Part shown: positions 14,403 through 30,200 of the stretch, piece by piece | Position numbering within the stretch: the first letter of the stretch is position 1 | How the letters are laid out: every line of letters begins with the position of its first letter | NCBI GenBank assembly: GCA_020629415.1 | Contig: JAHDDL010000014.1 | Coordinates: forward strand, 22,842-86,841 | Length of the DNA stretch: 64,000 nt | Direction of reading: 5' to 3' | From: Maribacter sp. | GTDB taxonomy: Bacteria; Bacteroidota; Bacteroidia; Flavobacteriales; Flavobacteriaceae | Position numbers and translations under genes: made by a program | Notes under the pieces: generated by a model | The model's input: the letters and a program-made list of their open reading frames with translations, nothing else | The model's database searches: none | Told to the model about the DNA's origin: nothing

Positions 14403-17225
14403 TCAACCGACCGAAGTAATAGATTGATGTGCGGCCTGCGCAAAACTCTTAATTTTAGGGTTCGGGTCATCAAGATATTGGGCAACTATGTGTAGATACC
14501 TGGGTTCTTTTTGTTGTGCGATAAGATACAATACGGCAAGTTTGATCTTAAGGTCATTGCCCTGTAGAAGAAGTTTAAAACATTCTAATTCCGTTGGTAT
14601 TTTATGTTTGATTTTTTGAAGCTCTTCTTCAGAAGAAATATCCAGGGCAGATTCCTCAATGATGGGTAGCAATCTACGTTTTAGCTCGCCGGTTAAAAGA
14701 TTGTCCAAAAATTCTATGGCATTATGTTGCGCTTCTTGTTTCTGACTCAGTAAACCTTCATAGGCAATAGCTACATCTTTTTGTTGATAGCGTAATCCCA
14801 AAAGTTTAAAAATTCGTTCTAACCCAGAATCCAGTCTGCGTTCCAATAGCTCTAAAAGACTGGTGCGCGCATCTCTTTCTGCATCGCCAATTTCCTTTTT
14901 GGATTTATTTCTATTTCGATATGAAATAATGATTTGGGTGTGCATGGCGGATAAGGTTTGGTGATGCAGTTTGCATTCGTCAAAAATGACCGATACCACC
15001 TTGTACTTATTAAATTTTAATTGCGGGTGCGTTGCCCGTATAGTACTTAATGCCCTCACTACTTCTAAACGAACCGTAAGGTCTTCATGGTTTAAAATAC
15101 CCAATAAGTGATGTACGGCCTCCTTGGAATGGAAAGATTGCATTGCGGTCGGTATAAATCGTAATACCGATAAAGGTTGCCGGCGCTCTGCAACATGGTT
15201 CTTCAGTATAGGCAAAATTTGCTGACCATATACATTAAAGGCTTCCAGTACTGTTGGTCTAAATGCCTTTTCTGCCAAAAGGGGAATAATGTGCTGTACC
15301 ATTTCTGGATCGGTTGCCGTACCTATAGCCTTTATGGTGGTTTTCACGATTTCTTCATTTTTATGCTGTAAAAATGCAACCAACCTGTTGTGGAAAATGG
15401 GCAAGTTGGCTACTCCCAATATTTCAATTACCGATGCAACGTATGGCAGGTCTTTTTGGTCAGATGCTATGGTTTTCAGTGCCAAAGAAATACGGTCCAA
15501 TAGTGAGTAGCGCTGTTTTAAAGAATAGTTGTTTTTTGCCGCTCTAGCCAAGCAATATAGAGCAGCGGTCGCAATACGCTCGTTTGAGTGTTCTAGATAC
15601 GCATCAAATATGAACGATTTGTCTTTATGGGCAAAACTTAGAATATAGGCCAAAGTGGCAATAGTCAATTCACGGTCATCAATTTTTAATAATTCGGATA
15701 CCTCTGCCGTCATACTTTTAGAATTTAAAAAGTATAGATTCTGTATAGCCGATAACTTCACTTTATTACTTGGGTGCTCTAACAGCAACTCTACATCATC
15801 TGCGAATCTCTTGTCATTGATTTCCATCAATTTATCCAACATAAATAGAATTTGCTCTTCGGTACCGTTCTTAAAAACGGTGCGCATGCCTGCAACTACA
15901 GATACTTTGGTGTCCGTGACCTTCTTGGTTTTTTTATAGGAGTCGGTCAGTTCTTCTAAATTGTTTCTAAACGTTTTGTAATATTCAATACGTACTTTAT
16001 AAATAAAATAGAGCCAAAGACATACCAAAGCAATTATAAGAATGCCAATGTAAAAAGAGGGTAGGTCCAGCCCACGTACAACGAATATTAAAAGGCATCC
16101 GGCAATTCCCGTAGCCAAACTATCCACCACCACATCAATAAATGATTTGGTCTTGTTTTTTAGCTCAAAAGGTAAGGGCAAAGTCAACAGTTCAGAGGCA
16201 CTTTTATGTATGGATTGTTTCAATATGCCATCCATCGCTTTAATAACTACAACGGCAGAAAGTTCAGGAAGCATTAAAAACAAAATACTACCACCAAATA
16301 TACCAATGGGCAATAATAAGAGTGAAAACCCTACACCCCAAATGCCCACAATTCTATGGGTGAAAAATAGCTGAATTATCAGCGAAAGTAGATTGAACGT
16401 AGAAAACCAAAAAGCAAAAAATGCGGTAAGCTCATCGGCATCCGTAAAAGACGACGACGCAAAATCACTGAACAAATAATCTACCAATTTAGCGACTACG
16501 ACACTCACGGCTACAATGCTGGCAATATAGGTGAGATGTTTGGATTTTAGTATGAGTTTTAAAGGCGGTTCACTAAGGTTGGTCGCAGATTTATGTTTTT
16601 TTACACTGCCATTTTTTTTAACGCGGATGTTCCAAATATTTCGCAGAAGGGGAATGCAAAAAAATAGAAGCAGGGCGGCTACGAACATTAAGTTTTCATT
16701 GCCGATTATAGGGGCTAGAATAGAAGTTAAGTATCCACCAAAAATTCCACCAATAATAGCTCCCGATCCTATAAAGCCAAACAGTCTTTTAGCCTCACGA
16801 ATATTGAACACCAAATTTGCCAGTACCCAAAACTGAGAGGCGGATAAAACGGCATAAATGGCTACCCAGATGTAAAAGAAATACAACAGAACGCCACTCA
16901 CTACCTCAAATGACAATAGAATGCCTAAACCGATCATGATAATAATAGAACTGATCAGGGTAATCTCAATTACTTTTTTAAGCGAGTATTTTGAAACCGC
17001 CTTTGAGTAAAAAAAAGAGGTGGCTACCGCCGTAACGGCAACCAATAAAAAGGCAAAGGGCAATTGTTCAACACCTAGTTCAGAAAGAAAAAGAGCGTTT
17101 ACCGTAGGTTTTATGATCAGTAATACGGCTATGACCAAAAAAATGTAGGCGAGCATCCAAAGAGATACTTTGAACTCGCCTTCACGTACATCGAATATTT
17201 TTTTAATCAGTCTTTCTACCATCAA
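14403..17225 (-). CDS. Transporter (MFS / ATP-ADP translocase-like) fused to HEAT repeats
   Basis: A 940-residue protein. Residues 15-410 contain about 12 hydrophobic helices in the style of MFS or Npt-type nucleotide carriers (for example IFLVIAVLLIIKPTVNALF, and a conserved ELLTLPLPFELKNKTKSFID loop after helix 10). From about residue 430 to the end the protein is soluble and helical with many HEAT-like repeats, for example HLLGILNHEDLTVRLEVVRALST and LDDPNPKIKSFAQAAHQ. This fusion, known in Bacteroidota, suggests a membrane carrier with a large cytoplasmic protein-binding or regulatory arm. The transported compound is unknown. A beta-lactamase-like gene lies 25 bases upstream in the same direction. 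Confidence 0.85.
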   Translation of the reverse strand: MMVERLIKKIFDVREGEFKVSLWMLAYIFLVIAVLLIIKPTVNALFLSELGVEQLPFAFLLVAVTAVATSFFYSKAVSKYSLKKVIEITLISSIIIMIGLGILLSFEVVSGVLLYFFYIWVAIYAVLSASQFWVLANLVFNIREAKRLFGFIGSGAIIGGIFGGYLTSILAPIIGNENLMFVAALLLFFCIPLLRNIWNIRVKKNGSVKKHKSATNLSEPPLKLILKSKHLTYIASIVAVSVVVAKLVDYLFSDFASSSFTDADELTAFFAFWFSTFNLLSLIIQLFFTHRIVGIWGVGFSLLLLPIGIFGGSILFLMLPELSAVVVIKAMDGILKQSIHKSASELLTLPLPFELKNKTKSFIDVVVDSLATGIAGCLLIFVVRGLDLPSFYIGILIIALVCLWLYFIYKVRIEYYKTFRNNLEELTDSYKKTKKVTDTKVSVVAGMRTVFKNGTEEQILFMLDKLMEINDKRFADDVELLLEHPSNKVKLSAIQNLYFLNSKSMTAEVSELLKIDDRELTIATLAYILSFAHKDKSFIFDAYLEHSNERIATAALYCLARAAKNNYSLKQRYSLLDRISLALKTIASDQKDLPYVASVIEILGVANLPIFHNRLVAFLQHKNEEIVKTTIKAIGTATDPEMVQHIIPLLAEKAFRPTVLEAFNVYGQQILPILKNHVAERRQPLSVLRFIPTAMQSFHSKEAVHHLLGILNHEDLTVRLEVVRALSTIRATHPQLKFNKYKVVSVIFDECKLHHQTLSAMHTQIIISYRNRNKSKKEIGDAERDARTSLLELLERRLDSGLERIFKLLGLRYQQKDVAIAYEGLLSQKQEAQHNAIEFLDNLLTGELKRRLLPIIEESALDISSEEELQKIKHKIPTELECFKLLLQGNDLKIKLAVLYLIAQQKEPRYLHIVAQYLDDPNPKIKSFAQAAHQSITSVG

Positions 17226-17250
17226 GAAATGGGCATCTGTATTTCAAGAC

Positions 17251-18162
17251 CTAAAGTACTGGCTTTTTTAACACCTTTTCAATTGGTTTTACTAAATCTC
17301 TGATTATTTGTTCTCCATTGGCATCATCTATCAACGCAACCAGAATGTATCTTCTATTGCCGTCTTCGCCCCAAACCAATATGGAATCGGAATGATAGGT
17401 ACGCCAAGAGCCCGATTTTCTGAACAACCTGGCATTGGGTGCGATTTTATCCAGCGTATTTACAAACTTATGGTGCAGTTCTGGGTCTTCCATAATATCT
17501 AGCATTTGCTTGGATCGCTTTTCATTGACCAACTTACCGTTCGCCAATAGATAGTAATATCTACATACTTGGGTCACAGATGCGGCGTGACTCAGATTTT
17601 TTAAGGGCTCTCTGTTAGTTTCACCACCACTGCCGTAACGTTTGCCTACCCAAAGACCGCCTCCTTTTTGTTCATCATAAAAGGCATACTTGGGATCGCA
17701 CATCACCGATTCTAATTTTTCATACCCCACGCGATCGATCATTCTTGTAGATGCGGCATTGTCAGATTTACTGATCATTAAACGCATGTCTTTCTTTACT
17801 TCTGTAGTTTCCTTTAGTTCGCCTTTTTCAATAGCATCCATGGCCGCCAATAGAATGGCAATTTTAGGTAGGCTGGCAGCATACATCATATGGTTGCCGT
17901 TGACCCTTGCAAATCTTACCTTTTCCGGATTGCTCAGATCAACTAGTCCAACTGCCATTTTCTTTTGCACGATAAGATCGTTCCATTCTTGGTGAGAAGC
18001 CAGTTCATCCCTTAAATTGGTTTGCAATGAGCTGTCCAACAATTTTTGCAGGGGTTTGATCTTTGAATTGTCCATACGAAGTGGTAGCTCATTTTGTGCT
18101 TGTACTGCGGCACAGCATAGAAGGGAAAAAAGAAAAATTACAGGGGTTGATCTCATTGACAT
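17251..18162 (-). CDS. Class A beta-lactamase-like serine hydrolase, secreted
   Basis: From the ATG at 18162 the protein has 303 residues and a clean signal peptide (RSTPVIFLFSLLCCAAVQAQ); the frame extends to 18201 but that addition would spoil the signal. Active-site motifs of the penicillin-binding superfamily are present: SLPK (Ser97, Lys100), SDN in SKSDNAAS, REPLKNL as a possible omega-loop glutamate, and RKSGSW as the KSG box. It may be a beta-lactamase, but many such flavobacterial proteins are peptidases or amidases of unknown role. It stands upstream of, and transcribed apart from, the PLP/DUF1611/epimerase operon, which may process murein-derived amino acids. Confidence 0.83.
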   Translation of the reverse strand: MSMRSTPVIFLFSLLCCAAVQAQNELPLRMDNSKIKPLQKLLDSSLQTNLRDELASHQEWNDLIVQKKMAVGLVDLSNPEKVRFARVNGNHMMYAASLPKIAILLAAMDAIEKGELKETTEVKKDMRLMISKSDNAASTRMIDRVGYEKLESVMCDPKYAFYDEQKGGGLWVGKRYGSGGETNREPLKNLSHAASVTQVCRYYYLLANGKLVNEKRSKQMLDIMEDPELHHKFVNTLDKIAPNARLFRKSGSWRTYHSDSILVWGEDGNRRYILVALIDDANGEQIIRDLVKPIEKVLKKPVL

Positions 18163-18422
18163 TCGCTTATTTAAAAATGTAGTCAAAATTAGGTAAAGCA
18201 CTCATTGGCTATATGTTAATTTTTATGGTTAGTACATTTTTTAAAAACACCGTAAAATCAATATAAAGACATATATCGCATAAAATAGGGTGTTAATTTT
18301 TAAAATAATTTCGGAATATATAGTACCTATGCGTCCCTTTTTTTGAGGGCAAATGGGTTAAAAATTTATATCTAATTTCAATAAAATAACTGTATCTTAA
18401 AAAATGGAATTTATACAGACTT

Positions 18423-19484
18423 ATGAATCTTAAAGATGGCGTAAAAACGGCTGAGAACAAGGTGTCTACAGAGGCACGTAGACTTAGTGATATGGTCAAG
18501 GATAAACGTAAATCTTTGGTAGATCGCTTAGAGTGCTTTGAAGATATTATAAGTTTGGAAGTAGGCGATACCGGTCTGCACCGTGCCAAGACTTTAGAAC
18601 GTGAGTTCGATGTTCGTCAGCTTTATTTAAAATACGAAGGTGATAACCCTACCGGAACCCAAAAAGATCGTATTGCTTTTGCACAATTGTATGATGCGCT
18701 ACGTCGCGAGTTTAGCGTGGTAAGCTTGGCTACCTGCGGTAACTATGGTGTAGCAATGGCGTTGGCATCTGACCTGGCGGGTATAGCTTGTAAGATTTAT
18801 ATACCGGAAAGTTACCATACCGATCGAGTGATAGAAATGGAAAGCCTAGGCGCAGAGATTATTCGTATACCCGGTAGTTATGAAGATGTGGTTACGGAAA
18901 GTTCAAGGTTGGCGGCAGAACATGGCTGGTATGACGCAAATCCGGGCGGTGCCAATACGCCGCTGCAGATTTCTGCCTATGCGCAGATCGCACAAGAGAT
19001 TTTTGAAGATTTGGGCGACGCCCCAAAATACTGTGCGGTACCCGTTTCTAACGGAACGTTGTTTGCAGGTATTTATAGGGGCTTTGTAAATCTTTACAAA
19101 AGAGGGAAGACCTCGCGTATTCCTAAAATGATCTCGGCTTCTTCTTCGCATAAGAACCCTATTGTAGAATCCTATTTGCAAGGTCTGGATCATTGTAAGG
19201 ATCTTAATCCTGCCGCAATAAAAGAAACCAAATACAATGAGCCATTGATCAACTGGCACAGTTTTGATGGGGAAGAGGCATTGTATGCACTTAAGGAATC
19301 TGAAGGGCATGCCTTCAACATTAGCGACAAAAAACTAAAGGAGATGACTTCTCTTTTACATAAAAAGGAAGGGTTCCGAATTTTACCTGCATCGACAGCG
19401 GGTTTGATCGGACTCTTAGAATTAGACGAAAAAATGAATTTTGAGCCTGACCGATTTGTGGCGGTGCTCACTGCAAAAAATTAA
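18423..19484 (+). CDS. Threonine-synthase-like PLP enzyme
   Basis: A 353-residue fold-type II PLP enzyme. The Schiff-base lysine is Lys81 in EGDNPTGTQKDRIAFAQ, the phosphate-stabilising segment follows as ATCGNYGVAMA, and GVANTPLQ-like and PVSNGTLFAG glycine-rich loops bind the cofactor. The first 40 residues are a helical extension. It is the first gene of a tight three-gene operon (8-base gap to the DUF1611 gene, which overlaps the epimerase gene). It lacks the insertions of true threonine synthase and no thr genes are near, so racemase, dehydratase or beta-replacement activity on another amino acid is more likely. The exact reaction is not known. Confidence 0.85.
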   Translation: MNLKDGVKTAENKVSTEARRLSDMVKDKRKSLVDRLECFEDIISLEVGDTGLHRAKTLEREFDVRQLYLKYEGDNPTGTQKDRIAFAQLYDALRREFSVVSLATCGNYGVAMALASDLAGIACKIYIPESYHTDRVIEMESLGAEIIRIPGSYEDVVTESSRLAAEHGWYDANPGGANTPLQISAYAQIAQEIFEDLGDAPKYCAVPVSNGTLFAGIYRGFVNLYKRGKTSRIPKMISASSSHKNPIVESYLQGLDHCKDLNPAAIKETKYNEPLINWHSFDGEEALYALKESEGHAFNISDKKLKEMTSLLHKKEGFRILPASTAGLIGLLELDEKMNFEPDRFVAVLTAKN

Positions 19485-19492
19485 ATATAAAA

Positions 19493-20566
19493 ATGAAGAA
19501 AGTTATTGACGGTAAGGCACTGGTATATTGTGAGGGGGCATTTAATACGCCTAACGGTAAAACGGCACATGGGCTGGTTCGCTTTACCGAACGTTATGAG
19601 GTGGTTGGTGTGCTAGATGCTAAATATGCCGGTAGAGATGCCGGTGATGTTTTAGATGGCAGACCAAACGGAATCCCTGTTTTTAAAGATCTTGAAGCTG
19701 CTATCATAGCATTAACGGCCAGCGACAATTTGCCAAGTTATTTGGTAATAGGGCTTGCGCCAGATGGTGGTAGGTTGCCACAAGTTGCAAAAGCCACTAT
19801 AAAAGCTGCGTTGCAACAAGGCTGGAACGTTGACAGTGGCTTGCATGATTTTTTAACGAACGATGCAGCATTGGTGGCATTGGCCAAAGAAAAGAATGTA
19901 AAGATCAGGGATATAAGAAAAACACCGGATCGTGATCAATTGCACTTTTTTACCGGAGATATCGAAAAAGTAGACTGTTTAAAATTAGCGGTTTTAGGAA
20001 CGGATTCTGCCCTAGGTAAACGTACAACTGCTTGGATTTTGGTACATGCATTTAGGAATGCCGGTAAAAAGGCGGAAATGATAGGTACCGGACAAACCGG
20101 ATGGATGCAAGGCGCTAAATATAGTATGGTGATGGATAGTTGTATCAATGATTTTGTATCGGGTGAAATTGAACATGCCGTGGTCAGTGCCTACAAGAAT
20201 GAAGATCCAGATGTTATTGTCATAGAAGGGCAGGGGAGCTTAATGAATCCTGCTTACCCGGGCGGATTTGAAATTCTGGCTGCAGGTAGACCGGACTATG
20301 TTATTCTGCAACATGCACCAAAACGATTGGAATACGATGGGTTCCCAGGATATAAAATGCATTCGTTAGAAGAGCAGATCAATGCCATACAAGTGATTTC
20401 GGGTAAAGAAGTAATAGCCATTACCGTAAATCATGAAGGCATGGAGAAAAGTGAAATTCTAGATATTTGCAAAGCAATTACCCTTGAAACTAAATTACCG
20501 GCTTTTGATGTGTTGGAGTACGGTGCAGAAGATTTAATAGCTATTTTGAAGTCAAAATTGAAATGA
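19493..20566 (+). CDS. DUF1611 P-loop protein (DgcN-like)
   Basis: A 357-residue DUF1611 protein. The N-terminal half is a Rossmann-like domain (LVRFTERYEVVGVLDAKYAG), the C-terminal half a P-loop domain with GTDSALGKRTTA (residues about 170-181) and GTGQTGWMQG. In marine bacteria a DUF1611 protein, DgcN, was described as an N-acetyltransferase acting on D-glutamate, working with an enolase-superfamily partner DgcA. The direct coupling here to a dipeptide-epimerase-family gene (shared ATGA) matches that gene pair. Assignment to D-glutamate metabolism is inferred from this context. Confidence 0.8.
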   Translation: MKKVIDGKALVYCEGAFNTPNGKTAHGLVRFTERYEVVGVLDAKYAGRDAGDVLDGRPNGIPVFKDLEAAIIALTASDNLPSYLVIGLAPDGGRLPQVAKATIKAALQQGWNVDSGLHDFLTNDAALVALAKEKNVKIRDIRKTPDRDQLHFFTGDIEKVDCLKLAVLGTDSALGKRTTAWILVHAFRNAGKKAEMIGTGQTGWMQGAKYSMVMDSCINDFVSGEIEHAVVSAYKNEDPDVIVIEGQGSLMNPAYPGGFEILAAGRPDYVILQHAPKRLEYDGFPGYKMHSLEEQINAIQVISGKEVIAITVNHEGMEKSEILDICKAITLETKLPAFDVLEYGAEDLIAILKSKLK

Positions 20567-21630
20567 GAATAACGAACATTTCTTTTGAGCGCTTAGATTT
20601 AAAACTCTCCGATCCTTACACGATCGCTTATGAGACTATAGATCGTACCAGTAACTTTATATTAAAAGTAGAGACCGATGGTAAAATTATAGGTTATGGT
20701 TGCGCAGCGCCAGATCCTATAGTTACCAATGAAACTCCTGATGATGTTGCACATGCCATAGATAGCATTATTATACCGTATTTAAAGGGCAAGGATCCAT
20801 TTACATACGCGCTATTGCTTTTAGAACTTAAACAAGTATTGGGGAAACGGTCTTCTGCATTGGCTATGGTAGATTTGGCATTATTTGATATCATGTCTAA
20901 AAAAGCCGAGGTGCCTTTATACAAGATTTTGGGTGGTTATCGCAATCAAATTGCTACCAGTATTACCATTGGTATTATGGGTGTAGACGAGACCTTGGCT
21001 CAAGCTAGTGAATTTGTAAAGCAAGGTTTTGGCATTTTAAAGGTTAAAGGCGGTTCTAACCTTGAAGAGGATATTGCTAAAATGCGAATGATCCACGAAA
21101 AGTACCCAAATGTTGAATTACGGTTTGATGGTAACCAAGGCTATTCTGTAAAAGAATCGGTTGCATTTGTGAAGGCTACTGCCGCAATTGGGGTAGAAAT
21201 TTTTGAGCAACCCACCAAAGTGGAGGCTGAAGAACGCTTGGGCGAAGTAATGGATCAGGTAAATGTGCCTATTATGGCAGATGAAAGTCTAAAAACATTG
21301 ACCGATGCATTTCGTTTGGCGCAAAATGAACGGGTAGATATGGTGAATATCAAGCTACAGAAAGTAGGCGGTATTTGGGTGGGTATGCATATCAATTCCG
21401 TAGCCAAGGCAGCTAAATTAGATGCTATGGTGGGTTGTATAGATGAGTGCGGACTGGGTATTGCCGCAGGTTTGCACTTTGCCCTATCTAGACCTAATAT
21501 TAAGTATGCCGATTTAGATGGTCATTTAGATATAATCGATGATCCCTATCATTCCATTTTTAAATTGGAAAAGGGAATTTTATATCCGACCGAAAAACAT
21601 GGTTTGGGTTTCTCTGAGTCGGATATGTAA
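20563..21630 (+). CDS. Enolase-superfamily dipeptide epimerase / N-acyl-glutamate racemase type (DgcA-like)
   Basis: This 355-residue protein has a capping domain (1-125) and a TIM-barrel of the muconate-lactonizing subgroup. Catalytic lysines are visible: KVK at 160-162 and VNIK with Lys264. Metal ligands are Asp189 (FDGNQ), Glu215 (FEQP) and Asp240 (ADES). Near the C-terminus ADLDG gives a DxD pair, which in Ala-D/L-Glu epimerases holds the amino group of the substrate. So either murein dipeptides or N-acetyl-glutamate could be epimerised. It overlaps the DUF1611 gene by four bases. It is the last gene of the operon and converges on the second GH63-like gene ten bases away. Confidence 0.87.
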   Translation: MRITNISFERLDLKLSDPYTIAYETIDRTSNFILKVETDGKIIGYGCAAPDPIVTNETPDDVAHAIDSIIIPYLKGKDPFTYALLLLELKQVLGKRSSALAMVDLALFDIMSKKAEVPLYKILGGYRNQIATSITIGIMGVDETLAQASEFVKQGFGILKVKGGSNLEEDIAKMRMIHEKYPNVELRFDGNQGYSVKESVAFVKATAAIGVEIFEQPTKVEAEERLGEVMDQVNVPIMADESLKTLTDAFRLAQNERVDMVNIKLQKVGGIWVGMHINSVAKAAKLDAMVGCIDECGLGIAAGLHFALSRPNIKYADLDGHLDIIDDPYHSIFKLEKGILYPTEKHGLGFSESDM

Positions 21631-21640
21631 TAGGATCTTT

Positions 21641-24268
21641 TTATTCTTCCAATTGCTCAATAAGGTTGGCAACTAAGGCTGTCCAACCTGTTTGATGCGA
21701 TGCTCCCAGACCACGACCGTTTTCTCCGTGAAAATATTCATAGAATAATATCAAGTCCTTAAAATGAGGGTCTTGGTAGTATTTTTCGTAGTTCTTGTTG
21801 ATTGCCCTATTGCCTTTTTCATCTTTCTCGAACATGTGGATCAGGCGTTTGCTCAACTCATCGCTCACTTGTTTAAGGTTCAGGAGTTTGTTGCTCCCGG
21901 TTGGGTATTCAAACAGAAAATCATTACCGTCATACCATTGGTATTCTCGTAGTGCTTGAATGAACAGATAGTTCATGGGCATCCAAATAGGTCCGCGCCA
22001 GTTAGAATTTCCACCGAACAAGGGCACGGTAGATTCCGCCGGCTCATAATCAATGGAATATTCTATGCCGTCAATATGAATTTGATAGGCTTTCTCATGT
22101 ACTTTAGATAATGATCGTATACCATATTCACTTAAAAATTCTTTCTCATCTAAAAGTGCGGTGACCAGTTTTTGCATTCTATCCTTAGGTACCAATGAAA
22201 GCAGTAGGTCGCCATCTGCTTCGTATTGCTGTATTACTTCATATTTTAAGTTTTCTGCACGGTACTTTTTAAACCAAAGAACACTGGCCTTAAACTTAGG
22301 GAATTTATCCAACACACTTTTTTTAATGGTAAGTACTGCCGCTAAGGACAACATACCTGCAATTGAGCGTACTTTAATGGTGGTAGATTGCCCATTAGGC
22401 AGGGTCAACCTGTCATAGAAGAAACCTTCTACATCATCCCAAACATTTGCCTTATCTGTATCCATTTTGTTCAGGGCTTCTGCGATGAATACAAAATGCC
22501 CAAAATATTTTGTCGCCATGTCTTCATAAGTATCGTCATTTTCTGCAATACGAAGACTTATTTCTAGCATGTTTAAACTATATAGGGCCATCCAAGCGGT
22601 ACCGTCAACTTGATCCAAGAATCCACCGCCGGGCACACCATGACTACGATCAAAGACCCCAATGTTATCCAAGCCCAAAAATCCGCCTTGAAAGACATTA
22701 TTGTCATTTCTGTCTTGACGATTTACCCACCAATTGAAGTTCAACGAAAGTTTGTTGAACATGCGTTTTAGGAACTTGATATCGGGTACACCTGTAATGG
22801 ACTTATCGGTACCGTAAATCTGTAATGTTGCCCATGCCTGTACTGGCGGATTTACATCACTGAAATTCCATTCGTATGCGGGAATTTGACCATTAGGAGC
22901 CATATACCATTCTTTGGTGAACAGCAATAATTGATCTTTGGCAAATTCAGGATCTATAGATGCAAAAGAGGCACAGTGAAAGGCAGAGTCCCACGCTGCG
23001 TACCACGGATATTCCCAGGCATCGGGCATAGAAAGTACATCGTGGTTTCTTAATGTTTTCCAATTGCTGTTTCTTCCGTTTTTACGCTGCTCCGGCGGTG
23101 GGGTGGTCTTGTAATCGCCTTCCAGCCATTTTTCAACCTCGTAATTGTAGTATTGCTTTGTCCATAGTAAACCGGCAAAGGCTTGTTTTAAAATCGCCTT
23201 TCGATCAATGGTTGCTTTAGGAGCTATTTCTTCATAAAATTGGGCACATTCTTCTTGTCGTGCTTTAAAAATAGCATCAAAATCTGAAAAAGGTGTATTC
23301 AAAGTTTCTTCTGTCAAACGAAGTTGAAAGGTTTTAGATTCACCGCCACCTATAATTTCTTGGTATAACGGTGCAAATTTGGTCCCGGAGTTATTTTTGG
23401 TGGCCAATTCAAAATCATTGTTGCAAACGGCATCATTAAATAAATCCTTTTTAAAAGGATGGTCGTTTGTATCGCTATATACTTTTTTTCTGTTCGTTTC
23501 ATTTTCGGTAAAGAACAACTGTGCCGCTTTTTGAAAATACAGATTGTAGCTGCCCACATAAGGGTGGTCTATGTGTACAAAGGGGTTTGTTTTGGTCCCT
23601 TTTTTAGTGATAACAGGCTTTTTGGACATTTCTTTAAATGTCCAATGATTACGCATTACCATTTGTGGTAGTAAGGTAATAGGTGCTGCTTGATTGCTTC
23701 TGTTGGTAATGGTGATTTTGATAAGAATATCGGTCTCGTCTCCCTTTGCATATTCGGTACTGACATCAAAATAGGTGTTGTCGTCAAAAATACCGGTATC
23801 CAAAAGCTCAAATTCCAGCTCTTTACGATTCCGTTTTTGGTTTTCGGTTATGAGTTGGTTGTATGGATAAGCATTCTGCGAATACTTGTACAAGTACTTC
23901 ATGTACGAGTGAGACGGTGTATTCTCTAAATAATAGTACAGCTCTTTTACGTCTTCGCCATGATTACCTTGCGGACCTGTTAGCCCAAATAGGCGCTCTT
24001 TTATAATGGGATCTTTTCCGTTCCATAAACCTATGCTAAAACACATGTTGCAATAGCGATCGCTAATACCTGCAATACCATCTTCACCCCAACGAAAAGC
24101 GCGACTTCTGGCATGGTCATGCGGAAAATAGTTCCAGGCATCGCCACCGGCACTATAATCTTCACGTACCGTTCCCCATTGGCGTTCACTTAAATACGGT
24201 CCCCATTTTAACCAGTCTTTTTCTTCTTTTTGTTGTTGGGATAAGCGGATTTTTTCAGGGTTGTTCAT
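21641..24268 (-). CDS. GH63-like (MGH1-type) glycoside hydrolase, copy 2
   Basis: Also 875 residues and clearly paralogous to 11714-14341: shared blocks include ERQWGTVREDYS, KERLFGLTGPQGNHGEDVKE, GLLWTKQYYNYEVEKW, EYPWYAAWDSAFH, AYEWNFSDVNPP, FGGNSNWRGPIWMP and GASHQTGWTALVANLIEQLE. The (alpha/alpha)6 barrel occupies roughly the last 500 residues. No signal peptide. Differences are frequent in the N-terminal beta region (residues 180-300), so the two copies may have separate substrates. It faces the first copy across about 7.3 kb, an arrangement compatible with an old inverted duplication. Confidence 0.88.
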   Translation of the reverse strand: MNNPEKIRLSQQQKEEKDWLKWGPYLSERQWGTVREDYSAGGDAWNYFPHDHARSRAFRWGEDGIAGISDRYCNMCFSIGLWNGKDPIIKERLFGLTGPQGNHGEDVKELYYYLENTPSHSYMKYLYKYSQNAYPYNQLITENQKRNRKELEFELLDTGIFDDNTYFDVSTEYAKGDETDILIKITITNRSNQAAPITLLPQMVMRNHWTFKEMSKKPVITKKGTKTNPFVHIDHPYVGSYNLYFQKAAQLFFTENETNRKKVYSDTNDHPFKKDLFNDAVCNNDFELATKNNSGTKFAPLYQEIIGGGESKTFQLRLTEETLNTPFSDFDAIFKARQEECAQFYEEIAPKATIDRKAILKQAFAGLLWTKQYYNYEVEKWLEGDYKTTPPPEQRKNGRNSNWKTLRNHDVLSMPDAWEYPWYAAWDSAFHCASFASIDPEFAKDQLLLFTKEWYMAPNGQIPAYEWNFSDVNPPVQAWATLQIYGTDKSITGVPDIKFLKRMFNKLSLNFNWWVNRQDRNDNNVFQGGFLGLDNIGVFDRSHGVPGGGFLDQVDGTAWMALYSLNMLEISLRIAENDDTYEDMATKYFGHFVFIAEALNKMDTDKANVWDDVEGFFYDRLTLPNGQSTTIKVRSIAGMLSLAAVLTIKKSVLDKFPKFKASVLWFKKYRAENLKYEVIQQYEADGDLLLSLVPKDRMQKLVTALLDEKEFLSEYGIRSLSKVHEKAYQIHIDGIEYSIDYEPAESTVPLFGGNSNWRGPIWMPMNYLFIQALREYQWYDGNDFLFEYPTGSNKLLNLKQVSDELSKRLIHMFEKDEKGNRAINKNYEKYYQDPHFKDLILFYEYFHGENGRGLGASHQTGWTALVANLIEQLEE

Positions 24269-24479
24269 TTACTTTGAGAGGCTTTGATGTTATTAATTTA
24301 AATATTGAAAAAAATAAAACTTAGAGTCTATTGCGTTACGATGATTTGTATTATTTAAAAACAATAGGTAATTCTAATTTTTTTAAAAATTGTAATTTCA
24401 TTATTGAAAGTTTAAGAAAAATCTTAAATTTTTAGAAGAAAAGAACTGACAATAAATTAATAATATTATTATTGTGAAA

Positions 24480-24487
24480 TAATTTTA
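24480..24487 (+). promoter_or_regulatory. Possible -7 element for the ncRNA
   Basis: TAATTTTA fits seven of eight positions of TAnnTTTG and ends four bases before the G-run at 24491, where the first closing stem of the ncRNA begins. No TTG at -33 distance, so support is weak. Confidence 0.35.
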
Positions 24488-24490
24488 ATT

Positions 24491-24808
24491 GGGCTGGGAA
24501 CATAGCTGATGGTTACGTTTTATTATAAATACATTTAGGTGTATCACATGCAGAATTTGGCTGACGTGTGAAGAATCATTCCAATAATCCAAATGGGAGT
24601 GAAAGCAGTGGAAAGCTGTCCTATCACCTGTAGGAATATTAGGAATGTCTTGAGTTCTGTCTGATATGATTGTAACATGAATATAAGTGTTATAAGTATT
24701 AAAGATATGAATTTAATTCTAACAATGAGTGGCGCTACCTACGTGTAAAATCGGAAGTAGCATAAGGATTGTACCATCATAAAGCAGGCCACGACCAGCC
24801 CTTTTTTT
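24491..24808 (+). ncRNA. Predicted structured ncRNA of the reverse-transcriptase system
   Basis: Non-coding, and its ends pair in two separate long-range stems. GGGCTGG (24491-24497) is the exact complement of CCAGCCC (24795-24801). TGATGG plus TAC (24507-24516, one bulged T) pairs with GTACCATCA (24771-24779). Local hairpins inside include CACATGCAG/CTGACGTGTG (24545-24570, one bulge), GCTAC/GTAGC (24734-24761) and AGGTG/CACCT (24537-24629) around the first. The 3' end is followed by seven T residues (24802-24808), as in an intrinsic terminator. The reverse transcriptase ATG is at 24817. Stand-alone defence RTs such as DRT2 and DRT9 have an essential ncRNA in just this position. Structure read by eye. 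Confidence 0.65.
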
Positions 24809-24816
24809 AAGAATTT

Positions 24817-26391
24817 ATGAATCCAGACTGGTTAAAGTTTAAAAAGTATCCACATATTGGAAAACCACTGACTAATAAAAAAGATTCAGGATGGATTACC
24901 GAATATGTGACTAACCCAAAAAAGATAGCCAAGCACAAATTCACACCTTTATTACACAAGAAAATTTACCAAAGAAAATATAGACCTAATAAAGATGCTG
25001 AAAAAAACAAATTTGGTAAAAAACAAAGGTCAGTACAGAAGCCTAAGGAGCGACCAATTTTTTATGCTTCACATTTGGATTCCATTGTTTATAGCTATTA
25101 TAGTTTTGAATTAACTCGTGCTTATGAAGAATATTTAGTAGATAAAAAGTTTGGTAAAAGTGCTGTTGCTTATAGAAAAATTCCAATAATTAAGGGGCAA
25201 AAAGGGAATAAAAGTAATATTGAATTTGCTTTTGAAACTTTTAAGTTTATTGAAAATAATAAGCATCGTAAGTTATCAATGATAGTTGCTGATGTGACCT
25301 CGTTCTTCGATAATCTTGATCATAAGATTCTTCATAAACAATGGAAACGTATTTTAGAAATTGATAGTTTGCCTGATGATCATTATAATGTTTACAAAAG
25401 CCTGATATCCAAAAGATATGTGAATGAGTTGGATCTATTTAAAAGATTTAAACATAAGCTGATAGTGGAAAGAGGGTTAATTAATGATGATCAACGTACA
25501 AAATTACGTTATAAAAGGGTAAAGCATATTTGGAACTTAAAGAGAGAAAGAGTTGTAGCATATTGTTCAAAAGAAGAATTTTTTAAGACCGCAACGAATA
25601 TAATAAGAGTAGAGAAAAGCTGTAGTGAACAACATAAAAGATGTAGAGGTAAATGTGAATTAAAAGGAATTCCGCAGGGTACCCCTATGAGTGCAACACT
25701 AGCTAATATTTACATGCTAGATTTTGATATGTTAGTATATGATAAAGTTGAAGAAAGAGAAGGCTTTTATCAAAGATATAGCGATGATTTAATTATAGTC
25801 TGTGAACAAAAAGATGAAAATTATTTTAATAATTTAATCCGTAGTTCTATCGAAAATTTAGCTAAACTAGATATACAACCTAAAAAAACTAATATCTATA
25901 GATACGAAAATGTTGATGGTGAATTTAAGGGAGGTATTTTAAATGAAAAATTAGAAATCTCTCCAAATAAGCATTTGGAATATTTGGGTTTTCAATATAA
26001 TGGGAGTAAGGTTAAGGTTAAAACTGTGGGGTTTTCTAAATTCTATAGAAGTATGAAAAGGGCCTTTCGAAGAGGTGTCCATTTTGCAATAAAACCTGAG
26101 AATAAAAATCATGATTTGTTTGAGGAAAGACTATTCAAAAGGTTTACTTACAAGGGAGCGAAAAGAAGATTAATTTATAAGCCAGATCCAAATTCAAAAA
26201 CAGGTTATTCTATATCGAAAGAACAATATTGGGGTAATTATATAAGTTATTTGGATAAGGCAAATCGGGTCATGAAACCTATAAATAAGGATAACACAAT
26301 TAAAAAACAATACTCGAAATTTTGGCCAAATTTTGGTAAGGAAATGAAAAAATCTTACAAGGAAATTGGAAAAAAAATATCTAATTTATAA
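24817..26391 (+). CDS. Stand-alone defence-type reverse transcriptase (DRT/UG group)
   Basis: A 524-residue reverse transcriptase. RT blocks appear in order: RPIFYASHLDSIVYSYY (79-95), AYRKIP (118-123), VADVTSFFDNLDH with the first catalytic Asp159 region, GIPQGTPMSATLANIYMLDF (284-303), and the active site YSDD (321-324). LEYLGFQYNG is RT block 7 or the thumb start. The C-terminal 150 residues are basic and helical. There is no maturase or endonuclease domain (against a group II intron) and no retron VTG motif was found. The N-terminus (KKYPHIGKPLT) and the order of motifs recall DRT2/DRT9-like antiphage RTs. Odd: a cysteine cluster (Cys269, 276, 280) just before block 4. The exact UG class is not certain. 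Confidence 0.85.
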   Translation: MNPDWLKFKKYPHIGKPLTNKKDSGWITEYVTNPKKIAKHKFTPLLHKKIYQRKYRPNKDAEKNKFGKKQRSVQKPKERPIFYASHLDSIVYSYYSFELTRAYEEYLVDKKFGKSAVAYRKIPIIKGQKGNKSNIEFAFETFKFIENNKHRKLSMIVADVTSFFDNLDHKILHKQWKRILEIDSLPDDHYNVYKSLISKRYVNELDLFKRFKHKLIVERGLINDDQRTKLRYKRVKHIWNLKRERVVAYCSKEEFFKTATNIIRVEKSCSEQHKRCRGKCELKGIPQGTPMSATLANIYMLDFDMLVYDKVEEREGFYQRYSDDLIIVCEQKDENYFNNLIRSSIENLAKLDIQPKKTNIYRYENVDGEFKGGILNEKLEISPNKHLEYLGFQYNGSKVKVKTVGFSKFYRSMKRAFRRGVHFAIKPENKNHDLFEERLFKRFTYKGAKRRLIYKPDPNSKTGYSISKEQYWGNYISYLDKANRVMKPINKDNTIKKQYSKFWPNFGKEMKKSYKEIGKKISNL

Positions 26392-26398
26392 GTTATAC

Positions 26399-27082
26399 TT
26401 AAACCGCCCTTTGCACCACTTCAAAAACCTTATTGGCATCGCACTTAATAGTTTTAGAAGGGAATTTTAATATTAAGGCGTAATCGTGTGTTGCCATTAA
26501 AATGGTTCTCCCGGATTTATTGATTTCCTGTAAAACCTTCATCACCTCCACACTGGTTTGTGGATCAAGGTTTCCGGTTGGCTCATCGGCAATGATCAGC
26601 TCTGGGTCGTTCAATAAGGCACGGGCAATGGCAATACGTTGTTGTTCCCCACCAGAAAGCTCGTGCGGAAATTTAAAGCCCTTGGTTTTCATACCTACTT
26701 TTTCAAGTACGTTTGCTACCCTTGCATCCATCTTGGCTTTATCCGTCCATCCGGTTGCCTTTAATACAAAAAACATATTTTGGTTAATATTACGGTCTGG
26801 TAGTAGTTTAAAATCTTGAAAGACAATACCCAATTTTCTACGTAAAAATGGAATGTCCTTTTCCTTTAGCGTCTTAAGATCGAACTCCACCACATGCCCT
26901 TCGCCTTTTTGCAAAGGCAAATCGCCATATAGGGTCTTCATAAAGCTACTTTTACCACTACCGGTCTTACCAATGAGGTAAACAAATTCACCTTTAGCGA
27001 TTTTTAAACTAACTTCACTAAGTACCAAGCTCTCCTTTTGAAAGATAGCCGCATCTTTAAGTTCTAAAACAATCTCTTCCAT
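26399..27082 (-). CDS. ftsE: Cell-division ABC ATPase FtsE
   Basis: A 227-residue ATPase with Walker [11 protein letters not shown] (about residues 38-47), Q-loop [12 protein letters not shown], signature LSGGEQQR and Walker [14 protein letters not shown]. The [10 protein letters not shown] stretch is characteristic for FtsE rather than for LolD or MacB. FtsE works with the membrane protein FtsX to drive peptidoglycan hydrolases at the septum. FtsX is not next to it here, which is common in Bacteroidota. The gene converges on the reverse transcriptase gene with seven bases between them, and is divergent from the TPR gene. Confidence 0.9.
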
Positions 27083-27191
27083 AACACAAATGTTGTCATA
27101 AAAGTAATAAGTTCCATTTGATATTAGAGAACCCTTTTTTAAAATCTTTTATTTTGAGAGGGTATTGCACATACTTAGGTACAATTTTTGA

Positions 27192-27211
27192 CGTTATCAC
27201 ATGTGATAACG
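27192..27211. promoter_or_regulatory. 20-base perfect palindrome, likely operator
   Basis: CGTTATCACATGTGATAACG is symmetric over all 20 bases and lies 27 bases before the TPR gene, in the space shared with ftsE. A dimeric repressor or activator is the likely ligand; a long hairpin in the TPR leader RNA is the alternative. Confidence 0.6.
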
Positions 27212-27237
27212 GTACTACTAAATAGTAACAGAACACT

Positions 27238-30200
27238 ATGCTTAAAAAAATCACTGCTTTTATTCCATTGGTATTCGGGTTGGTCACTTTGACCAATGCA
27301 CAAGAGACTAAGATCTATACCCACGAACAGAAAGCTTTTCAAGATGCGCTAGCGCTTTACAATAACGAACAATACCAAGCGGCACAGACCATTTTTGATA
27401 AGGTAAAAGTGTCTACAAAAGATGAGGAGACCGCTGCCAATAGCGCCTATTATTCTGCCAACGCGGCAGTGCGCTTAAACCAGATGGGTGCCGATAGGTT
27501 GATGGAAGATTTTGTAGAAAAATATCCTACATCTACCAAACGTAATTCTGCCTTTGCCGATGTGGCGGAGTACTATTTTCAAACAGGAAAATATCCGTAC
27601 GCTTTAAAATGGTACAATATGGTTGACCAAAGTTCTCTTTCTCGTGGAGAGATGGATAAGTTTAACTTCAATTATGGCTATTCTTTATTTTCATCACGTA
27701 AAACAAAAGAGGCTGAAAAATACTTGGAGAAGGTTGCCAATTCACCGGTATACGGTTCTCAGGCAAAGTATTACTTGGGGTATATTTCTTATCAACAAGA
27801 TGACTATGAAACCGCAAACCAGCGTTTTGATCAAATTACGGATCAAGATGTATTGGAAGAAAAACTTAGTTATTACCAGGCGGACATGAACTTTAAGCTG
27901 GGCAAGTTTGACGAGGCTATTGCATTGGCAAAAAAGCAACTGCCAAAGGCAGACAGACGAGAAGTGTCCGAATTGAACAAGATCATAGGGGAGAGTTATT
28001 TTAACCTTAAGCAATACGAGAATGCCATACCTTATTTAACGGAATACAACGGTAAAGGTGGTAAATGGAACAATACGGATTATTACTATTTGGGCTATGC
28101 TTATTATAAAGGTGGTGATTATGCCAATGCCATTGCCCAATTCAACAAAATTATAGGTGGTACTAATAGCGTTTCGCAAAATGCATATTACCATTTGGCA
28201 GAATGTTATTTAAAGTTGGATAAAAAGCAGGAAGCTCTGAACGCCTTTCGTAATGCATCGCAAATGGACTACAGTGCCGAGATTCAGAAAGATGCATTCT
28301 TAAATTATGCACGTCTAAGTTATGAAGTCGGTAATGCCTATGAGCCGGTTCCGCAGGTGATTACAAATTACTTGAAGATCTACCCTAAAGATGAGCATCA
28401 AGAAGAGATGCAGACCCTATTGGTAGATTCATACATTACCTCAAAGAACTTTGAAGGTGCAATGAAACTGTTAGAGGAGAATAAAAACTACGCCAGCAAA
28501 TCGGTATACCAAAAAGTAGCTTATTATAGAGGTATTGAACTTTTTATGGAAGGCGATTATAATGCGGCTTCAGAAAATTTTGAGAAATCATTGGGCAGTG
28601 CGGAAGATATGCTGTTCAAGGCCCGTGCCGATTATTGGAAAGCGGAGTCCGATTATTTGTCCAACCGTTTTGATGATGCGGTAAAAGGGTATACGGCATT
28701 TAAGAACAACCCGTCTGCACAAAGTACAGAAATGTATACCGATGTTGATTATAATTTGGCCTACGGATATTTTAAGCAGAAAAATTATAATGATGCCATT
28801 ACCTATTTCAACGTATTTACGTCTAACGGAAATGCAGATGTAGAAAAATTAAATGATGGTTACCTACGTTTGGGCGATAGCTACTATGCGACCAGTAAAT
28901 ATTGGCCTGCCATAGAAACCTACAATAAAGCTTTGGCATTGACAGGACCTGAAAAGGATTATGCCTTCTACCAAAAAGCGATGAGCTACGGATACGTGGA
29001 TAGGGGAGAAAGCAAAATTGAAAATTTAGAGGAGTTTGTAAGTCAATACCCAAGGTCAAGTTTTAAAGATGATGCTTTGTTTGAATTGGGAAATACCTAT
29101 GTTGCCCAAGGTCAGGAAAGCAAAGGTCTTGCCGCCTATGATCGTTTGATCAGTGAATATAGAGGAAGTTCGTTGGTGCCACAGGCGTTGATGAGACAGG
29201 GCCTGGTCAATTATAATGCCGCAAAAAACGAAGCTGCTTTGGCAAAGTTTAAGACGGTTGTTCGCGATTTTCCAAAAACACAAGAGGCTATTCAAGCGGT
29301 AGCCACGGCAAAATTGGTGTATGTGGATATGGGGCGAGTGAACGAATATGCCGAGTGGGTTCGTGGTCTTGATTTTATTGAGGTAACCGATGCGGAATTG
29401 GACAATGCTACTTTTGACGCTGCCCAAAAACAGAACTTGGAGGGTAATGTTGATGCCGCTATTAAAGGATATAAGAATTACATTCAGCAGTTCCCAACAG
29501 GTTTACATGCCGTAGATGCCAACTTCAGTTTAGCTCAATTATATTTTGGAAAAGGAGATAAGGAAGCTGCTTTGGCTTACTATAAATATGTGGCGGATAG
29601 AAGCACGAGCGAGTATGCAGAACAGGCATTAACACGTGTTTGCGAGGTCTATATCTCTAAAAATGATTACCAGATTGCATTGCCATATTTGTTAAAATTG
29701 GAGAGTCAGGCTAATATTCAGCAGAACAGAACATTTGCACGTTCCAATTTAATGAAAGGTTATTACAAGCAAAAGAACTATCCAAAGACATTGGAATATG
29801 CGGATAAGGTATTGTCTACTCCAAGTATTGACGACAGAATAAAGAGCGATGCGCATGTTATGATCGCTAGATCGGCCATTGCCACAAATGATGAGGTAAA
29901 AGCAAAATCCGCTTATGAAGAGGTGTTGAAAATAGCCTCAGGTGCAACGGCTGCAGAAGCTTTGTATTACAATGCCTACTTTGAGAATTTAGATGGGTCA
30001 TATGAGAACTCTAATATTGCGGTTCAAAAATTGGCGAAAGACTATGCCGCATACAAGGAATGGGGCGGTAAAGGTTTGGTGTTAATGGCTAAAAACTATT
30101 ATGCCTTAAACGATGCCTACCAAGCAACCTATATTTTAGAGAGCGTAATAACCAACTTTACGCAATACCCGGAAATTGTTGCCGAGGCTAGAGCGGAGCT

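Follow-up and report, generated by a model that had tools for sequence, protein, structure and literature searches.

The locus described here lies in a 64,000-nucleotide (nt) stretch of DNA from Maribacter sp. (contig JAHDDL010000014.1, hereafter the window, whose numbering is used throughout), where a single reverse transcriptase (RT) gene follows a structured non-coding RNA (ncRNA). The RT open reading frame (ORF; 24817-26391, plus strand) starts with ATG and encodes 524 amino acids (aa) with an intact catalytic YSDD motif, as a preliminary description of this DNA had stated. In line with its further claim that maturase, endonuclease and retron features are lacking, RVT_1 (PF00078, 1e-14) was the sole Pfam match up to an E-value of 1, with no further domain, and the retron_St85 and group_II_RT_mat models scored 52 and 66 bits, below their cut-offs of 235 and 300; these scores speak against a retron or group II intron placement, two of the three placements (with DGR) that the description had named as counter-evidence. 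That description had proposed a probable DRT-type system with a leaning toward DRT2, which proved right, and had considered the RT unplaceable in one UG class, which did not hold, since PADLOC and NCBIfam profiles, solved structures and a tree allow the class to be told. The PADLOC Drt2/UG2 profile scored 438 bits (1.1e-131), 359 bits ahead of the next class (RT_UG17, 79 bits), and the best matches among solved structures were DRT2 RTs (9lje, 9c0i and others; 4e-46). A tree of 32 UG2 RTs, rooted at its midpoint and built without an outgroup, groups the window RT with Bacteroidota rows only, in a clade of 23 (support 100/96); the nine remaining rows are those of Escherichia coli, Photobacterium, two further plasmid types and four distantly related Bacteroidota. 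Because of these profile scores and this separate clade, the RT is assigned to the UG2/DRT2 class, outside the studied E. coli/Klebsiella-type subgroup.

Compared with the E. coli type, the window RT carries two insertions, which by the Klebsiella domain borders would lie in the fingers and the thumb; an AlphaFold model computed from 5 sequences reached a predicted local distance difference test score (pLDDT) of 40 and was of no use for interpretation. A possible metal-binding cluster, CSEQHKRCRGKC, stands at residues 269-280, before GIPQG. The idea of a zinc finger as a family feature was dropped, the cluster being present in the window and in homologous loci L001, L003, L069 and L004, partial in L002, and absent from L010-L013, L055 and subclade B.

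The ncRNA most likely extends from 24491 to about 24808 (plus strand) and contains a template region and a terminal run of seven T. The structured non-coding stretch of about 310 bases that had been claimed ahead of the RT is real, and its borders needed a slight correction, with a TAATTTTA box (24480-24487, plus strand) ahead of it and the seven T after it. Judged by its position just ahead of the RNA, this box may be the -7 element of the ncRNA's own promoter. The region folds better than its shuffles (z-score of -3.5, with 0 of 100 shuffles as good) and aligns well ahead of the nearest homologous RTs, where it is conserved; its absence from close homologs, the other outcome named as counter-evidence, was thus not observed. 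Among 55 pairs predicted by RNAalifold from 11 sequences, 22 are kept with both sides changed in at least one sequence. The outer helix of the window (GGGCTGG/CCAGCCC, 24491-24497 and 24795-24801) precedes the seven T and, when the best two long-range helices are listed for each locus, reads ATTAAAGTCAAG/CTTGACTTTAAT in L013, with other pairing arms also seen in several relatives. In the same listing, an inner helix reads TGATGGT/ACCATCA in the window and TGGTAGGTACG/TGTATCTACCG in L012, while different, AT-rich helices rank first in L001 and L003. An Rfam search of the window returned no family at the gathering score.

The region ahead of the RT also hides a stop-free minus-strand frame between two short identical sites. 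In published DRT2 systems, two ACA sites are the points between which the RT jumps, the resulting repeat has a length that is a multiple of three and is stop-free on the opposite strand, and the junction between repeats completes a promoter (as described in PMC11100668, PMC12039810 and PMC12596737). Our search for jump sites covered 90 × 105 = 9450 column pairs in nine aligned loci, scored for the identity of the two sites. A single pair, ATTC/ATTC, had at least four identical bases at both sites in all nine, and the same pair gave a period divisible by three and an open minus-strand frame in 9/9 loci. Every column further left than the first hairpin loop breaks the rule of three in at least one of the nine loci, and the loop itself varies by single bases. 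The predicted left and right jump sites of the window (24578-24581 and 24716-24719, plus strand), counterparts of ACA-1 and ACA-2, would thus delimit a 138-nt template (24578-24715, plus strand) corresponding to 46 minus-strand codons that run stop-free through the junction. Both sites are altered together in L055 (TTTC/TTTC), and in subclade B the pair is ATACC/ATACC in four of five loci (L014-L016 and L070), L056 sharing ATAC only.

When the minus-strand repeat is joined head to tail, the junction is spanned by TTTG-N20-TATCTTTA: the putative -33 element TTTG (24593-24590) is followed by 12 nt to the jump and 8 nt more before the putative -7 element (24707-24700). This resembles the Bacteroidota -33/-7 promoter consensus, given as TTTG/TANNTTTG (PMC6847099; for the -7 box also PMC9723704), and TTTG-N20-TAnnTTT[GA] was present across the junction in 17/17 loci of subclades A and B. 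A sigma-70 pair (TTGACA-TATAAT) was not found across the window junction, which has the Bacteroidota-like pair instead. The predicted transcript would reach its first ATG 17 nt after the transcription start (24676-24678, minus strand), opening the frame of a hydrophobic 46-codon repeat, KFISLILITLIFMLQSYQTELKTFLIFLQVIGQLSTAFTPIWIIGI.

These features were combined into a strict criterion requiring a site homology of at least 4, a period divisible by three, an open frame and TTTG-N20-TAnnTTT[GA]. Exactly one pair satisfied it in each of 13 loci, versus a match in 1 of 1300 dinucleotide shuffles, and all those retrieved afterwards with an RT identity of about 50% or higher passed as well (4/4; L055, L056, L069 and L070). 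A looser criterion, with TTG for TTTG, was passed by 22 of 61 upstream regions (59 places, two of them counted twice), including L019, L021, L039, L057 and later L071, with the pairs TAATT, TATT, TATTT, ATTTC and ATAC. L018, L020 (an 8-nt pair, TATTTTAC) and L051 require a weaker box in order to fit, and L017 has an ATTC pair with a period of 153, in frame and open, but without the TAnnTTT box. As positive controls, two E. coli loci (L053 and L054) and one from Photobacterium (L050) displayed the published sigma-70 layout, with T(G/T)GACA-N17-TATAAT across a junction that is in frame and open (periods of 117, 117 and 111, respectively), L053 and L054 with ACA sites. The Photobacterium plasmid locus (upstream of 1483 in L050) seemingly has AGAT/AGAT in place of ACA, together with a perfect TTGACA-N17-TATAAT and its period of 111; no ACA pair in this locus is both in frame and open. 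No clear site emerged in two further controls, L049 (Psychrobacter) and L052 (Nitratidesulfovibrio).

Taken together, these observations make it very probable that the locus is a divergent Bacteroidota variant of the DRT2 (UG2) antiphage systems, one in which a never-ending ORF would be assembled and placed under a promoter of the host type. In this scheme, the RT would bind the upstream ncRNA and copy the template in the direction from 24715 to 24578, where the cDNA (complementary DNA) end GAAT, made on the left ATTC, would be released and re-pair with the second ATTC at 24716, so that copying restarts. Repeated jumping would yield tandem cDNA repeats of 138 nt, and once the cDNA is double-stranded every junction would complete a Bacteroidota housekeeping-type promoter, TTTG-N20-TATCTTTA. 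In messenger RNA from this promoter, the first ATG would open a stop-free frame of 46 codons per repeat, and the resulting Neo-type repeat protein may then arrest the infected cell. For the RT class, the conserved structured ncRNA, the paired jump sites, the period in threes, the open frame, the promoter-like junction pair and the in-frame start codon, the scheme draws on sequence comparison; for cDNA synthesis, the second strand, the phage trigger, expression and growth arrest, it draws on analogy with the Klebsiella system.

Several observations weigh against this interpretation. The window RT scored 321 bits with the NCBIfam Drt2 equivalog (NF041746), under the cut-off of 390; four clade-mates scored 319-374 and one RT from a more distant Bacteroidota clade 356, with E. 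coli and Photobacterium at 567-591. The Klebsiella-type ACA-1/ACA-2 motif is absent from the window, which has ATTC/ATTC instead. As for the promoter, the consensus -7 box ends in a G that is described as nearly invariant in Flavobacterium johnsoniae, where the -33 motif is weak (PMC6847099), and this final base is A in 10/17 loci including the window. Of the 17 strict loci, which belong to the subclade of the window and its sister subclade (A and B), 13 had already been inspected before the strict criterion was fixed, and the looser one was formulated after L057, L020 and L021 had been seen. All counts come from related loci and are not independent. Among nearer loci, L017, L018, L020, L038, L051, L058 and L066 failed the looser test, as did the Bacteroidota DRT2 loci examined at greater distance (L024-L037 and others). 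Finally, each E. coli control locus also holds a rival pair of equal promoter score that is out of frame (period of 116), as well as a second ACA pair that is open (period of 105).

We also considered that cDNA made by this UG2 RT might act as DNA, as a single copy or a concatemer, and be non-coding, the open frame being a by-product of base composition. Open frames are indeed not rare, 2 to 37% of the dinucleotide shuffles of the 24 repeats being open in some frame, and the codon-position test gave no sign of amino-acid selection on the frame, with neither third positions nor synonymous changes in excess (24 changes synonymous and 88 not, nine overlapping pairs summed), which also counts against a coding role. 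Against this reading, when pairs were picked by homology and promoter only, with the frame ignored, all 18 pairs obtained in 17 loci had periods divisible by three and were open, whereas the same picking at spacings of 16-19 and 21-24 gave 17 pairs, of which 10 were divisible by three and 9 open. Likewise, the promoter-like junction pair recurs at one spacing in all 17 loci of subclades A and B, and the ATG met first downstream of the -7 box, whichever its frame, sits in an open frame in 24/24 loci (the 22 that pass the looser criterion plus L018 and L020). We therefore regard a non-coding cDNA as improbable. In all 24 loci, the mean hydropathy of the predicted product is always above that of shuffled open frames (mean z-score of 2.5), an excess that is weak in some cases, e.g., L004, where 15 of 60 shuffles were equally high; L016 has two open frames. 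For the Klebsiella Neo protein, a hydrophobic bias is reported as well, and residue conservation is mostly ascribed to nucleotide elements (PMC12039810).

An alternative that we judge equally improbable keeps the proposed mechanism and places the borders at another site pair, in which case the repeat and its protein would differ in detail. A second pair does pass in L069 under the strict criterion and in L019 and L056 under the looser one. However, only one strict pair exists in 16 of the 17 loci, ATTC/ATTC stands alone in the nine-locus scan, and the choice of register within the identical bases leaves the product unchanged. DRT9 and DRT10 RTs belong to other RT classes than the window RT. 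A DRT9- or DRT10-like activity on the same ncRNA, yielding homopolymers or short telomere-like repeats, is the least credible option by far, as these systems share with the present one an ncRNA-dependent antiphage RT but are described as making homopolymers or short tandem repeats, unlike the predicted 138-nt unit (PMC12483538; PMC12632851), and the window RT is UG2 by the wide profile margin given above, with matched jump sites 138 nt apart rather than a few bases.

The closest known counterpart of the Maribacter locus is the DRT2 system of Klebsiella pneumoniae and its close homologs, with which it shares a single RT gene after a single ncRNA, RT homology along most of the length, a template flanked by two copies of a short site, a repeat that is divisible by three and has no stops in the opposite strand, a junction spanned by promoter elements and a hydrophobic repeat protein, the last being a prediction here. 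The two differ in RT length and motif (524 aa and YSDD in the window versus 425 aa and YCDD in Klebsiella), in jump site (ATTC in the window, with TTTC, ATACC and others in its kin, versus ACA), in junction promoter (TTTG-N20-TAnnTTT[GA] in the window clade versus TTGACA-N17-TATAAT) and in repeat length, which is 129-156 nt across subclades A and B versus the 111-129 nt reported for Klebsiella-type DRT2. The suggestion in the preliminary description that the ncRNA may be a new variant is supported by this difference in jump motif and junction promoter from the studied DRT2 systems. According to one earlier speculation, the cDNA may differ considerably among diverse DRT2 systems, and some of these systems may reconstitute phage-specific promoters (PMC12039810). 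For one DRT2 clade, our comparison suggests an answer to this point, left open by the two founding studies: the same principle would operate with another jump site and a host-type promoter, the predicted sites being defined to the base and the junction promoter appearing to follow the RNA polymerase of the host. The combination of a matched site pair, a promoter at fixed spacing and an open frame is offered as a rule for recognizing hidden repeat genes that lack the ACA motif. A literature search did not find DRT2 together with Bacteroidota, although one review pairs DRT2 with "bacteroid" and "flavobacter"; the supplements and the journal version of PMC11100668 lay outside this search, and an earlier report there is possible.

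More tentatively, DRT2 might be a chassis with a changeable code, in which the Bacteroidota jump sites drifted as a matched pair, the junction promoter became that of the phylum, and the protein is constrained in frame, start and hydrophobicity but not in its residues, Neo acting by a bulk property instead of on a specific target. This possibility, which we hold with less than even confidence, would explain why dissimilar repeat sequences could all serve defence, namely through endless hydrophobic translation.

RT matches at E-values of 1e-20 or better were found in 28 of 397 genomes of the family, 13 of 395 of the order and 12 of 395 of the class, and matches at 1e-60 in 4 of 31 genomes of the genus; these genome sets overlap and include the source genome, and the matches include distant DRT2. 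Phage records gave three matches of 27-31% identity, and none of the 14 stretches of viral contigs that fit a pattern was a relative. Long antisense open frames occur upstream of the RT in the distant Bacteroidota DRT2 loci L024-L037. On a Marivirga plasmid, the RT (L048, 3001-4560) is broken into five tblastn pieces by frameshifts or sequencing errors, and the accompanying ncRNA nonetheless retains its jump sites, its promoter and an open frame.

In the window, the RT stands alone between a glycoside-hydrolase gene (21641-24268, minus strand; Pfam MGH1-like and GH63) and an ABC ATPase gene (26399-27082, minus strand; Pfam ABC_tran), which we take to be ftsE. Over window positions 15000-30000, a same-species genome (G1388) aligns at 97% as far as base 24268 and resumes at 26398, and its slot (L075, 12163-14110) holds two other genes, which match the PADLOC candidate defence pair PDC-M03A/B and no Pfam family. 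Because these same-species flanks are 97% identical around different defence genes, the slot at 24269-26397 seems to be a likely swap site for defence cassettes. Two other Flavobacteriaceae genomes carry RT remnants, L005 (5001-5513, residues 354-524) and L006 (5001-5468, residues 369-524); these C-terminal parts, 81% identical and with the rest of the RT gone, are decayed copies.
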